64,000 nt of DNA from an uncultured Tenacibaculum sp. (lineage in GTDB: Bacteria > Bacteroidota > Bacteroidia > Flavobacteriales > Flavobacteriaceae), in NCBI GenBank assembly GCA_947504185.1, contig CANNGJ010000008.1, forward strand, positions 44,321-108,320, read 5' to 3'. Below the pieces are notes generated by a model. It worked only from the letters and a program-made list of their open reading frames with translations, did not search any database and had not been told where the DNA came from. Position numbers and translations under genes: made by a program. How positions within the stretch are numbered: position 1 is the stretch's first letter; the number at the start of each line of letters is the position of its first letter. Positions 8,781-25,046 of this stretch are shown piece by piece.

Positions 8781-9709
8781 TATTCGTGAATTAAAAAGTC
8801 AATTTTATCGGGAACAACTCTTACTATAGTAACTAAATCTGAGTGTGATTGAACTCTTGGAGTTAAATATGAAATTCCTTTAGTGTTGCTTTCATTATAA
8901 TCACATTCAACATTAAATAAATCAGGAGTTATTTTATTGAAATTTGTAAGCCCTACCTTGTATATTAGTTTTATTTTTTTAGGAAAAATATTTATTCCTT
9001 CAGGGGCATTTTTTATAGTTACTGGAATTTCAATTTCACCTTCAGTAAATTTATCCACAGCAACAATAATATCAACCTCTTTATTGGTTATTTTAAAGCT
9101 ATCGTTTTTAGGAATAATTATTTTAGATTTTATATTTATGCTTTCAGAAACATTTTTTAAATCTAATTTTTCAAGGTTTAAAAATGATATATTTTTCAAC
9201 TCTGTTTCATCTCCTGATATCAATATACTGTCAGGCTTTATTGTGATTGGTTTAGCTAAGTCAAACCCAAGTTGAAACGTGATATTTAAATTTGATTTTA
9301 AAGGAATGTTTTTAGAAGTTAATGTTCCTATTTTTAAAGGAATACTATCTTTTTGTGTTTGGATTAACTCTATGCCCGATTTTAATTGACTTTGAATATT
9401 AGCGTGTAAGTTTTTTGAAAGAAAATAATAATTATTTCCTGTTTTTCTATTCACTTTTTCTATATCTAATTGTAAAGGTTCATTACTAATGTTTGTAGAA
9501 AGTAAATTAAAGCCTGTTCCTTTTACCAATAAATTTATGCTTTTTAAAGGGATGTTTATAAGTGTTTTTTGCTGAGGTAAGTTTATATAGTTAATATCGT
9601 AATTTACTTCACTAGTGTAAGTTTTAGATAGGTTGATTAGAACCCAAAAAAATAGTGAGGCAACTAAAAAGCCAAAAAAAGTTTTAGGTATGTTTAAGTT
9701 TTTTTTCAA
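8780..9709 (-). CDS. YbbR/CdaR-domain-like protein
   Basis: Single N-terminal TM and YbbR-like repeats; sits between coaE and yajC as is common in Flavobacteriia. Confidence 0.75.
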   Translation of the reverse strand: MKKNLNIPKTFFGFLVASLFFWVLINLSKTYTSEVNYDINYINLPQQKTLINIPLKSINLLVKGTGFNLLSTNISNEPLQLDIEKVNRKTGNNYYFLSKNLHANIQSQLKSGIELIQTQKDSIPLKIGTLTSKNIPLKSNLNITFQLGFDLAKPITIKPDSILISGDETELKNISFLNLEKLDLKNVSESINIKSKIIIPKNDSFKITNKEVDIIVAVDKFTEGEIEIPVTIKNAPEGINIFPKKIKLIYKVGLTNFNKITPDLFNVECDYNESNTKGISYLTPRVQSHSDLVTIVRVVPDKIDFLIHE

Positions 9710-9742
9710 ATTAAAATATATTATGCAATCTACATAAAAAAC

Positions 9743-9773
9743 AAAAAAGAGAGCTTTAAAGCTCTCTTTTTAT
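9743..9773. terminator. Intrinsic terminator
   Basis: AAAAAGAGAGCTTTAAAGCTCTCTTTTT palindrome. Confidence 0.8.
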
Positions 9774-9787
9774 AATAAATATTACTG

Positions 9788-10108
9788 TTATTTTTTAATA
9801 TCAGTATTGTATTTTTTACTTAGCTCCATTGAAATAGCAGAGCGTTCAAATTTAATTTTACCTGCTCCAGTTTCAATTGTAATAGTATTGTCGTTGTCGT
9901 TGATTTCAACAATTTTTCCATGAATACCACTAGAGGTTACGACTTTAATTCCTTTTTTAACAGTTGTTTGAAATTGTTTTTCTTTTTTTTGACGACTCAT
10001 CTGAGGACGAATAATTAAAAAATAAAAAACACCAATCATAGCAATAAAAGGAAGCATACTCATGATACTTTCTTGAGTACTTGCTTGTAAAAAAATAGTT
10101 GTAAACAT
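9788..10108 (-). CDS. yajC: Preprotein translocase subunit YajC
   Basis: Single TM followed by RPQMSRQKKEKQF and GIKVVTSSGIHGKIVEI motifs. Confidence 0.95.
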   Translation of the reverse strand: MFTTIFLQASTQESIMSMLPFIAMIGVFYFLIIRPQMSRQKKEKQFQTTVKKGIKVVTSSGIHGKIVEINDNDNTITIETGAGKIKFERSAISMELSKKYNTDIKK

Positions 10109-10109
10109 A

Positions 10110-10577
10110 TTATACAGTTTTCTTTTTAGGAGTTACCATTCCAGAAATTTTAACTACCTCTCTACCTTTTTCAGTATTGGTTGTTAAAGTAATTGACTTA
10201 GATTGCTTATTTGGTTTACCGCTAGTATTAAAACTTACTTGAATATCTCCAGTTTTTCCAGGAGCGATTGGTTCTTTTGGCCAAACTGGGACGGTACATC
10301 CACAACTTGCTTGTGCATTTGTGATAACTAAATCACTTTTACCTGTATTTGTAACAACAAAAGTAGTTTTAACAACGTCACCTTCTTTAACAGTTCCAAA
10401 GTCAAATTCTTCTTTATCAAAAGAAATAGTAGGTGCTCCTAAGCTAATAGAGTTATCTCTTTCTTCAGCTTTTACTACATTCTCTTTTTTTACTTTCGAT
10501 GATGCATTTCCTTGTCCGCAAGAAACTAACATTCCTGTTGAAACAACTAATGCAAGCGCTACTGCTATTTTCTTCAT
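10110..10577 (-). CDS. DUF1573 domain-containing lipoprotein
   Basis: Lipobox LVSCG; FDFGTVKEGDVVKTTFVVTNTGKSDLVITNAQASCGCT. Confidence 0.9.
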   Translation of the reverse strand: MKKIAVALALVVSTGMLVSCGQGNASSKVKKENVVKAEERDNSISLGAPTISFDKEEFDFGTVKEGDVVKTTFVVTNTGKSDLVITNAQASCGCTVPVWPKEPIAPGKTGDIQVSFNTSGKPNKQSKSITLTTNTEKGREVVKISGMVTPKKKTV

Positions 10578-22254: not shown

Positions 22255-22926
22255 ATGATTCCAAATTTGCCACTGTACATTTCTATTTCGTTTGTAGTAC
22301 TTGCTATTTACGCTGTTTTTATTTTTTCAAAGTCCAATAATTTAAAGCCAAGTACACTGCCTATTGTTTTAGGATGGTCAATATTTATATGCGTGTTATC
22401 TTATTTAGGAGTCTACCATTATCAAGAAGGAGATTCTTTATCTCGTTTTGGGTTAGTATTGATTCCTATAATAATCTTTATTATTTATTTACTTAGAGAT
22501 AAATCGTTTTATAAAGATCGAGATTTTCGTTGGAGCACAGCTGTGCACATGGTTCGTTTGCCTGTAGAATTATTATTATATCAATTAGCAATAAGAGAAT
22601 GGCTGCCAATGGAAATGACTTACGAAGGCTGGAATTTTGATATTATTCCAGGAATAACATCAATTATCTTAGTAATTTATATGAACTATAAAGAAGTGAA
22701 CAGAAAACTGTTGTTAGCATGGAATATAATGGGGTTATTCTTGATTTTATTTATTCTAACAAACGGGTTTTTATCTCAAGAATTATTATATCAAAAATTT
22801 GGATATTCTGTGGCTAATAAAGGAATTGCTTACTCACCAATTATATTACTGGCGGGCGTTATTGTACCAATAGTAATATATACGCATATAAGTGATATTA
22901 TCTTATTAGTGAAATGTAAAGACTAA
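22255..22926 (+). CDS. Conserved hypothetical integral membrane protein
   Basis: Intact ORF with about 6-7 TM segments. Confidence 0.65.
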   Translation: MIPNLPLYISISFVVLAIYAVFIFSKSNNLKPSTLPIVLGWSIFICVLSYLGVYHYQEGDSLSRFGLVLIPIIIFIIYLLRDKSFYKDRDFRWSTAVHMVRLPVELLLYQLAIREWLPMEMTYEGWNFDIIPGITSIILVIYMNYKEVNRKLLLAWNIMGLFLILFILTNGFLSQELLYQKFGYSVANKGIAYSPIILLAGVIVPIVIYTHISDIILLVKCKD

Positions 22927-23116
22927 CGTTTAGTATAAGAAATCGTAGGGCAGGTGATAAGCACTATCGTTTCGGTTTATTACTTAGCTAAATATAAATA
23001 TTTTGCTTTTATTTTTCACTTAAATGCCAAATTTTATATTTAGCGGACTTTGTTAATACTCACAGAACTTTCGGTTTAGCACAAATGCCCTATGTTTTTT
23101 ATACCTTGTTGTATGC
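22925..23116. repeat. Structured intergenic element, attC-like (AAC...GTT ends, nested inverted repeats)
   Basis: Outer IR agtataagaaatcgtagggca (22932-22952) vs tgccctatgttttttatacc (23086-23105); inner IR gctaaatataaatattttgc (22987-23006) vs gccaaattttatatttagc (23026-23044); ends TAACG and TTGTTGTATGC. Confidence 0.6.
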
Positions 23117-23121
23117 AGTAC
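23108..23121. repeat. Left copy of 14-bp inverted repeat bounding the three-gene module
   Basis: GTTGTATGCAGTAC; reverse complement of 24780-24793 is GTTGTATGCAATAC (13/14). Confidence 0.65.
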
Positions 23122-23125
23122 TACT

Positions 23126-23419
23126 TTACAATCTGAAAATGTATTCAGCTGTTTGTTCAGTAATGAAATTTAATTCTTTTTCTTCCTCAAAAGTAAAATA
23201 ATTCAAATGCAATGGATACATTGTTTCTAAAGACTTAAATTCTTGTTTGATTATTGGAATTTGGTTTTGATTTTTATAGATAAGTAATATATCCACATCA
23301 TTAGCCATTGTTGAATTTCTGAGAATGGACCCGAATATTAAACAATCTAATTTTTCAATCTTAGATTCTAATTTTTTTTGAATACTCCTTAAATCTGTTT
23401 TTATTTCTTCCAAGTCCAT
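23126..23419 (-). CDS. Minimal nucleotidyltransferase (pol beta/MNT-like) domain protein
   Basis: LDCLIFGSILRNSTMANDVDILLIYKN, the GS...DVD nucleotidyltransferase signature; overlaps the upstream ORF by 19 nt. Confidence 0.75.
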   Translation of the reverse strand: MDLEEIKTDLRSIQKKLESKIEKLDCLIFGSILRNSTMANDVDILLIYKNQNQIPIIKQEFKSLETMYPLHLNYFTFEEEKELNFITEQTAEYIFRL

Positions 23420-24063
23420 TGTCTATTCAATATTCCTAAGAGTTCGCCCCATTTAAATACTTTTATGTTTATAGAATCTGCTAAATTTTCTGCAGAAGTT
23501 GTAATACCACCATTTGGGTTTGATTTTAAAATGGCATCAAATTTATTAAATTGGTTAATTGCATTTCGAACAGATTCTATTCCTATATCATAATCTTCGA
23601 GAGCAATTATTGTTACTGTTTCTAAACCATAACGCTCTATTTCATAACGTTTGTTGTCTAGTTTTTTTACGGATGAAACTTTTGTATGTTGTTTTAAACC
23701 TCTAGTTATAAAATGTACTTGAGGTGGTATATATGGATGGTTATTATTTTGACGAAGTACTCTAAATAAATCTCCAAAGCCTCCAATTACCTTTTTCTTT
23801 TTATTAAGAAATTCAAATATACTTCCCTGTATCCAAGGTTCTTTTACTGTGTGTAAAATGAAGTCTACATCTTGATTATCTAAAATAGATTTAATGTCAG
23901 TTAGATTTATTTCAGATAAAGTGATTTTTATAATCTTAATGGTCTTTTGTCCTTCTATCCGATTTATTTTTAGAAGAGAATTGGATATTACCTCTGAAGA
24001 AGAAATATTCTTGTTATCATCTAGTTTGTCTATAATCCATTCAAATGTAGTTTGTCTTGCCAT
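23401..24063 (-). CDS. Hypothetical protein, central gene of the HNH/NTase module
   Basis: Intact 220-aa ORF co-directional with both neighbours; family not recognised. Confidence 0.6.
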   Translation of the reverse strand: MARQTTFEWIIDKLDDNKNISSSEVISNSLLKINRIEGQKTIKIIKITLSEINLTDIKSILDNQDVDFILHTVKEPWIQGSIFEFLNKKKKVIGGFGDLFRVLRQNNNHPYIPPQVHFITRGLKQHTKVSSVKKLDNKRYEIERYGLETVTIIALEDYDIGIESVRNAINQFNKFDAILKSNPNGGITTSAENLADSINIKVFKWGELLGILNRQWTWKK

Positions 24064-24065
24064 AA

Positions 24066-24761
24066 TTACTCGTTAAATATATTACTGAATGCACTTGGAA
24101 ATCTACTAGCATCAATTTCAATTTTGTTAATGTGTCTAGATTCAAAATCCAAAACGTGTTGTCTGAATAATTCTACAGTAATAATTTCTTTTTCTGTTAA
24201 TAATTCATAATTTTCATCAATTATGTTAATCAATTTTCTGTTGTTTGGTAGAATACATTGTTGAATTTTTGATAACCAAATTTTAGGTGTTTCGCTTTCT
24301 GGATTAAATCTAGAATCAGTAAGAGGTCCATAAGTTTCAAAAACTGTTTTATTTTGAGTTAGTATTGGAAAGATATTTCTTCTAGCTTCTTGTCTTGTCT
24401 CATAGTGTTTAATTTTAAACAGCGATTTTATTTTATTACTATGATTGTTTTTCCATTTTAAAATGAGGTTTTTAGGAAATTCAGATTCTGCCTTATCAAT
24501 TTGAGTATGGCAAGTAGGACATAATAGTATCAGGTTTTCGAATAAACTTCTTTCTTCTTTAGAAAGTTTTTTATTAGCTCTCGGACCTTCATCACTATCA
24601 CTTATAATATGTGCCATTTCCGCTATATGGAAATCTGACTCACCAACGGTCAAAAATAGATTTGTGGTACAACTAGGATTTTGACAATAGCCACCTGAAT
24701 CAGCAAAGAGCATTAATTTGGTATGAGCATTTGGATAAGCTCTTCCTTTTGTACAAGCCAT
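24066..24761 (-). CDS. HNH endonuclease
   Basis: SGGYCQNPSCTTNLF...IAEMAHIISDSDEGPRANKKLSKEERSLFENLILLCPTCHTQIDK: zinc-binding HNH domain of the type seen in several defence effectors. Confidence 0.85.
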   Translation of the reverse strand: MACTKGRAYPNAHTKLMLFADSGGYCQNPSCTTNLFLTVGESDFHIAEMAHIISDSDEGPRANKKLSKEERSLFENLILLCPTCHTQIDKAESEFPKNLILKWKNNHSNKIKSLFKIKHYETRQEARRNIFPILTQNKTVFETYGPLTDSRFNPESETPKIWLSKIQQCILPNNRKLINIIDENYELLTEKEIITVELFRQHVLDFESRHINKIEIDASRFPSAFSNIFNE

Positions 24762-24779
24762 TTATTTTCTCTTTTTTTC

Positions 24780-24793
24780 GTATTGCATACAAC
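24780..24793. repeat. Right copy of 14-bp inverted repeat bounding the three-gene module
   Basis: GTATTGCATACAAC, inverted relative to 23108-23121 with one mismatch. Confidence 0.65.
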
Positions 24794-24813
24794 TGGTTAT
24801 ATATAAATAAAAC

Positions 24814-24850
24814 ATACTGTTATCCGGATTTAAAAAACGGATAACAGTAT
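24814..24850. repeat. Perfect 13-bp stem-loop
   Basis: ATACTGTTATCCG-gatttaaaaaa-CGGATAACAGTAT, between divergent genes. Confidence 0.8.
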
Positions 24851-25046
24851 ATTTATGTTGTTTTTTGAGAAAAAGAGACGTGCAATCAGAATTTAATCTA
24901 ATTAGCTCAAATTAACATATACTACTGTGAGTTTTAGCAATCTTTTTCTTCACTCAAATATAGTAAAATCAATAAATTATTAGAAAGAAAGTTTTTAATA
25001 AGTTATGCACAGATTTTGCTAATTTCGCCATTCAAAATTAAGATGT

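Follow-up and report, generated by a model that had tools for sequence, protein, structure and literature searches.

The locus described here is best interpreted as one captured gene cassette, whose three genes form an uncharacterised system that most likely acts against phages and in which a guarded DNase would be combined with Xer-type mobility; to this reading we assign a probability of approximately 50%. It is located in a 64,000-nucleotide stretch of DNA from an uncultured Tenacibaculum sp. (hereafter the window).

The three-gene locus and its inverted repeat

The genes for an HNH endonuclease (231 aa; 24066..24761), a so-called middle protein (220 aa; 23401..24063) and a minimal nucleotidyltransferase (NTase; 97 aa; 23126..23419) are all encoded on the minus strand; 2 nt separate the first two ORFs, and the last two overlap by 19 nt, the overlap being suggestive of coupled translation. 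The trio is flanked by holA, a crp-like regulator gene, a membrane protein gene (memb; 22255-22926) and an ABC-F ATPase gene. The three ORFs with their coordinates and spacing, as given in an earlier annotation made from the letters alone (the first-pass annotation), were all re-derived, as were its holA, crp-like and ABC-F flanks, to which memb is now added.

The inverted repeat that was reported to bracket these genes, GTTGTATGCAGTAC (23108) and GTATTGCATACAAC (24780), indeed matches at 13 of 14 positions, and its arms, when flanking letters are included, are 27 nt long at 78%. In AT-rich DNA a bare 13/14 repeat is weak evidence, being only moderately unlikely by chance (4 of 60 shuffles, 200 x 200 nt), while it is stronger evidence at the edges of an operon (none of 3000 shuffles when confined to 31 x 45 nt beside the genes). 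The repeat is taken as real because the general rule for cassette ends, outlined below, holds across related loci.

Conservation and distribution of the trio

Scanning of 84,980 genomes with an HNH alignment yielded 76 loci, and the partner genes were detected by iterating HMMs of the middle protein and the NTase over the ORFs around each HNH gene. The middle gene was found next to the HNH gene in all 65 full-length HNH relatives, representing as many species' genomes, and the NTase gene in all 64 of these loci whose contig continues, the exception (L030) being a contig end; the co-occurrence in other genomes that had been proposed as a check is therefore complete. The gene order is constant among these relatives, which belong to Bacteroidota, Pseudomonadota, Actinomycetota, Omnitrophota and other taxa, and the distance matrices computed for HNH, middle protein and NTase are correlated (r = 0.93, 0.90 and 0.90; Mantel p = 0.001). 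Ten loci with an N-terminal HNH only possess neither a middle nor an NTase gene, one of them (L084) being cut by a contig end. Computational analysis thus establishes the HNH/middle/NTase trio as a conserved unit.

Trios of the same order are present on plasmids of Vibrio and Phaeobacter (tblastn with the middle protein as query), with further plasmid trios in Polymorphobacter, Ensifer and Rhizobium, and all three genes occur in nine of nine plasmid loci and eight of eight IMG/VR contigs with a full-length HNH. Viral contigs gave no matches to the HNH C-terminal alignment (A4) or to the middle protein alone, whereas the larger HNH alignment did find viral-contig loci. Within the family, the middle protein was detected in two of 301 genomes, one of them holding a fragment.

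A trio remnant in another Flavobacteriaceae genome (L019, G045:C11, 2530-3030) consists of the NTase and the end of the middle protein, the HNH gene not being found there. The NTase of a Rhizobium leguminosarum trio (L022, 6609-6980) is apparently frameshifted, with the middle and HNH genes intact, while in an Actinomycetota trio (L086, 6690-7211) a deletion fuses the N-terminal part of the middle protein to an NTase without the GS motif. HNH domains of the same type also precede small proteins and large ATPases, apparently as parts of ABC-three-component systems (L093-L095, L098-L100).

Predicted folds and active sites of the three proteins

The HNH protein matches the Pfam HNH family (25.3 bits) and, with its N-terminal part only, the PADLOC families SAVED_HNH (5.7e-26) and PDC-M68A (9e-29); its AF2 model (pLDDT 83) returned Cap5 at a Foldseek probability of 1.00, and a resemblance to EcoKMcrA was also observed. 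The Cap5-type HNH domain covers approximately residues 7-120, the PADLOC and PDB matches stopping near residue 120, and its HNH and zinc residues are kept in 36-37 of 37 members. The last 110 residues are helical in the model and show no SAVED domain; this modelled helical C-terminal domain is predicted to be new and specific to this HNH family, replacing SAVED.

Among 37 NTases, 20-23 match Pfam Polbeta/NTP_transf_2, and the nearest solved structures are MNT proteins (1ylq, 9.6e-8, and the MntA-type 5yep), not CD-NTases. GS, DxD and E79 are invariant in all 37 members, while the third catalytic position is D, H or E, with His in 13 of the 37, including the window copy. Judged by these sequence features, the NTase is of the minimal MNT type.

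The middle protein, represented by 37 members, belongs to no Pfam or PADLOC family, PADLOC returning one weak hit. Its AF2 model (pLDDT 93.7) consists of two repeats of helix, three strands, helix, strand, helix, strand, helix, for which Foldseek returned the RPB5 N-domain (probability 0.95-0.99), a phage restriction endonuclease (0.98), a Mrr domain (1.00) and MspJI, with weak E-values, high probabilities and consistent names. The RPB5 N-terminal domain, MspJI, Mrr-type proteins and phage restriction endonucleases share the restriction-endonuclease fold, and the middle protein is predicted to comprise two tandem folds of this type (Mrr/MspJI/RPB5-N-like). A D...ExK motif was not seen among the residues conserved in the 37 members, and the protein is therefore probably catalytically inactive. 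Short forms of 127-137 aa, encountered in genome loci, contain the second domain only. The first-pass annotation had placed here an unknown protein instead of a HEPN partner: it is indeed not HEPN, yet it is now predicted as two inactive restriction-endonuclease-type folds.

Cassette ends and the attC-like element

Read on the minus strand, the cassette opens with G|TTGTATGCAATAC and ends with GTACTGCATACAAC, followed by an element that closes at ACTAAACG|TTAG. The right arm of the repeat (24780..24793, plus strand; GTTGTATGCAATAC on the minus strand) corresponds to the cassette 5' end, and the left arm (23108..23121, plus strand; GTACTGCATACAAC on the minus strand) to an R''-like 3' end of its coding part. 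The whole predicted gene cassette spans 1,866 bp (22927..24792, minus strand) and has G|TT at each boundary, in keeping with the cassette rule. The attC-like element of ~188 nt, CAACAAGGTATAAAAAACATAGGGC ... GCCCTACGATTTCTTATACTAAACG|TTA (22926..23113, minus strand), is recognised from its repeat copies and its ssDNA fold (z = -2.2). Matches to it occur in 53 of 151 Flavobacteriaceae genomes, with identities reaching 94%, and other copies lie on contigs C52, C46 and C41 of the window's own genome, 17 copies having a mean column identity of 86%; Rfam assigned it to no RNA family, the sole hit being a chance miRNA.

Flavobacteriaceae cassettes start with GTTR and end with YAAC and a 100-200-nt attC-like hairpin, and in related loci start and end match over 9-10 nt, after which a fixed mismatch occurs. 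For 78 of 150 comparable 3' sites, an upstream partner identical in the first 9 nt or more was found, as against 7.3 matches (maximum 12) when ends were swapped between loci. All 49 pairs with a 10-nt match have A against G at position 11, in which the window pair is identical, and a second class of ends has its mismatch at position 10 (A against T in 22 of 29). Furthermore, in arrays of other genomes the next cassette begins at the junction that closes the preceding element. The core boxes of the window, ATACAAC and GTTGTAT, are not of the strict RYYYAAC/GTTRRRY form, the family form being nnnYAAC/GTTRnnn. With inverse-repeat ends, a 3' hairpin site and G|TT junctions, all of which are found in integron cassettes, the locus has, on computational evidence, integron-like ends and geometry. 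The acquired cassette suggested by the first-pass annotation is thus strongly supported, its concrete form being an integron-like gene cassette.

Two short-form trios of other Bacteroidota (L051 and L060) likewise look like cassettes, having ends of this type, and L060 is flanked on both sides by an attC-like site. Cassette ends were not found within 300 nt of most of the Bacteroidota trios inspected (L026-L029, L059, L080 and L083), and no attC or VCR was seen beside the Vibrio trio L007 when its sequence was read by eye. On contig C52 of the window's own genome, two adjacent cassettes (L017), one encoding a monooxygenase-like protein with an AraC-type regulator, the other a DNA cytosine methyltransferase, both follow the end rule. 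Dense cassette arrays, several of them showing 13/14 end matches and short, mostly uncharacterised genes, were observed at L145, L137, L134 and L193.

Recombinase platform and probable insertion site

Several arrays start just after a tyrosine recombinase gene (~360-390 aa) of the same direction. At most of 22 loci, which form a chosen, non-random sample with a recombinase near the elements, and on contig C41 of the window's own genome, a GTTR start lies ~15-135 nt after the recombinase stop, in the position of an attI site; L184 and L187 do not have such a start shortly after the stop. The C41 platform (L195, 98-10558) consists of a recombinase gene (9449-10558, minus strand) followed by codirectional cassettes that encode, among others, Crp-like regulator, nitroreductase-like and serine-hydrolase-like proteins.

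The canonical integron integrase model TIGR02249 exceeded its cut-off in none of 151 Flavobacteriaceae genomes, the platform recombinases scoring 187-210 bits against a cut-off of 265. Against NF040815, which NCBI labels XerA / integron integrase, they score 188-232, at or near its cut-off, and ~42 IntI model positions have no counterpart, positions 178 to 239 being spanned by 18 aa in one example (G124). By sequence, the platform recombinase is classed as Xer-type and not as IntI. We infer from their relative position that the recombinase acts on the attC-like element: the Xer-type enzyme of the C41 platform would recognise the attC-like hairpin, excise cassettes as circles and insert them at the G|TT of the attI-like site.

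An attI-like insertion point, TTATATATAACCA|G (24793..24806, minus strand), borders the HNH cassette and resembles the attI of the C41 platform, the two reading CATATAACGA|GTTGG on C41 and TATATAACCA|GTTG at the HNH cassette, as judged by eye. Given these C41-like letters, insertion of the HNH cassette probably took place at an attI-like site next to memb. The predicted empty site reads ...AAAGACTAA|CTGGTTATATATAAATAAAACATACTG..., and a terminator-like hairpin outside the cassette (24810..24854, plus strand; inverted repeat I2, 86% over 22 nt) is probably the original terminator of memb, its position fitting what this empty site requires. Five relatives of the genus keep the holA-memb order, with crp found in four of them, and do not carry the trio in the stretches examined; the empty-site comparison that had been proposed is borne out as regards this absence, but yielded no clean empty site, other genes being present there.

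The system resembles an integron in its G|TT bounds, inverse-repeat ends, 3' hairpin site, tandem codirectional arrays and recombinase with an attI-like platform, while it differs in that its Xer-type recombinase has neither the IntI score nor the IntI insert and is codirectional with the cassettes, in that a fixed mismatch follows the 9-10 nt over which its ends agree, and in its long sites of 100-200 nt. It is very unlikely that the repeats represent instead a transposon-like or dispersed REP-type element, as opposed to integron-like recombination sites. The absence of canonical IntI and the 72 of 150 sites without a detectable partner would fit such an element, but it would not account for the ordered head-to-tail arrays with coinciding junctions, the fixed position of the mismatch, or the codirectional recombinase found directly upstream with an attI-like site, in the window's own genome as elsewhere. 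A complete Bacteroidetes integron is reported only from Salinibacter (PMC9024848), and Bacteroidota are listed, with no detail, among the integron phyla (PMC8618304).

Relationship to known systems

Of the trio, only the HNH and NTase domains have a name in PADLOC, Pfam and NCBIfam, the middle protein having none, and in the open-access papers searched neither the trio nor this cassette system nor Flavobacteriaceae integrons were found described. The view that the trio is not a named system thus stands for every library and paper searched, and none of the outcomes that the first-pass annotation had set against its own proposal (the locus in all relatives, no co-occurrence, a known system) was encountered.

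With Cap5 the trio has in common an N-terminal HNH DNase domain, in which the zinc and catalytic residues are the same, but it has an unrelated helical domain in place of SAVED, no CD-NTase and an extra restriction-endonuclease-type partner. Assignment to CBASS was rejected on the size of the NTase (97 aa, compared to ~300 aa and two domains in OAS-like CD-NTases) and on the effector, whose C-terminal half is helical, with no SAVED or other ligand-binding domain. The trio resembles HEPN-MNT (type VII) pairs in having a minimal pol-beta NTase, with GS...DxD in 37 of 37 members and likely a nucleotidylating regulator, next to a nucleic-acid-cutting partner. It differs from them in its DNase HNH in place of the HEPN RNase, its third protein and its NTase gene, which comes last, whereas MNT-HEPN pairs usually start with the MNT gene (PMC3710099); HEPN-MNT was rejected, the partners being an HNH and a double restriction-endonuclease-type fold. 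The PADLOC family PDC-M68 shares the HNH N-terminal domain, but leaves the C-terminal part of the HNH protein unmatched and the middle protein with its one weak hit. A methyltransferase, as expected of restriction-modification, is absent, the cassette holding the three genes only.

Proposed function

Defence neighbours on plasmids include Shedu, ABC-three-component, DRT3 and MNT-HEPN systems, and 120 ORFs flanking the trios gave hits to GajA, DruB, LmuA/LmuB (Lamassu), a type I methyltransferase, PDC-M68B (two) and PDC-S14, whereas 52 further ORFs of the window, a small control from one genome, gave mads-type hits only (mad3, mad8). PDC-M68B was seen in two flanking ORFs (alignment A11), although PDC-M68A itself is an HNH relative of the trio family. 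Based on the Cap5-type HNH, the MNT-type NTase, the defence genes near several homologues and the spread on plasmids and viral contigs, the trio is probably a previously undescribed anti-phage system, and the possible anti-phage or TA-like role put forward in the first-pass annotation stays the most plausible guess. It is improbable that the trio has no anti-phage role and serves mobile elements as a plain toxin-antitoxin or stability module: its occurrence on plasmids, viral contigs and cassettes, and the look of a TA pair that a nuclease beside an MNT presents, would suit such a module, while the defence genes near several copies argue against it and three strictly conserved genes would be unusual for a simple TA.

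In the proposed mechanism, which draws on the analogy with HEPN-MNT pairs (PMC3710099) and on the gene overlap, the HNH protein would be a DNA-degrading effector, and the middle protein, as a dead double restriction-endonuclease fold, would bind the HNH protein, and perhaps nucleic acid as well, in the role of adaptor or sensor. The NTase would switch the complex on or off, as in HEPN-MNT pairs, possibly by nucleotidylating a partner such that the nuclease remains silent until infection; activation would then destroy DNA and stop phage spread. The conservation of the active-site residues of both HNH and NTase in the 37 members counts in favour of this guarded DNase, while the terminal position of the NTase gene and the His variant of its third catalytic residue count against it.

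The NTase could alternatively produce, upon infection, a nucleotide signal sensed by the HNH C-terminal domain or the middle protein, in a miniature version of CBASS. The HNH domain is shared with Cap5, an effector controlled by cyclic dinucleotides, and the NTase is weakly similar to CBASS cyclases (16.4 bits against NCBIfam CBASS_cyclase_b, cut-off 200). Such signalling is nevertheless rather improbable, given an NTase of ~97-110 aa that amounts to a bare palm domain and whose closest solved relatives are of the MNT kind, and the absence of SAVED.

A restriction-like activity, in which the double fold of the middle protein would recognise a feature of foreign DNA and guide the HNH cut, with the NTase as accessory regulator and no cell suicide, would be in line with the modification-dependent MspJI and Mrr-type domains among the Foldseek neighbours of the middle protein and with the likeness of the HNH protein to EcoKMcrA. 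We consider it unlikely, since a methyltransferase is absent from the module and a catalytic motif from the middle protein, since the short form has a single domain, so that two-domain DNA recognition is not essential, and since this activity would leave the strict conservation of the NTase active site unexplained.

Implications

At slightly less than even odds, we suggest that Flavobacteriaceae and some other Bacteroidota possess an integron-like system that integron models miss (Xer-type recombinase, long attC-like sites, fixed mismatch) and that shuffles defence modules, including a new immune trio whose Cap5-type DNase is under the control of a minimal NTase and a pseudo-restriction-enzyme. 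If the trio serves in defence, it would constitute an unlisted system distributed over several phyla, with a DNase effector under minimal-NTase control and no second-messenger machinery. If the cassette reading is true, integron-like gene capture would be common in Flavobacteriaceae and invisible to IntI searches, and large sets of cassette genes would become accessible, the 9-10-nt ends with their mismatch providing a simple search rule.
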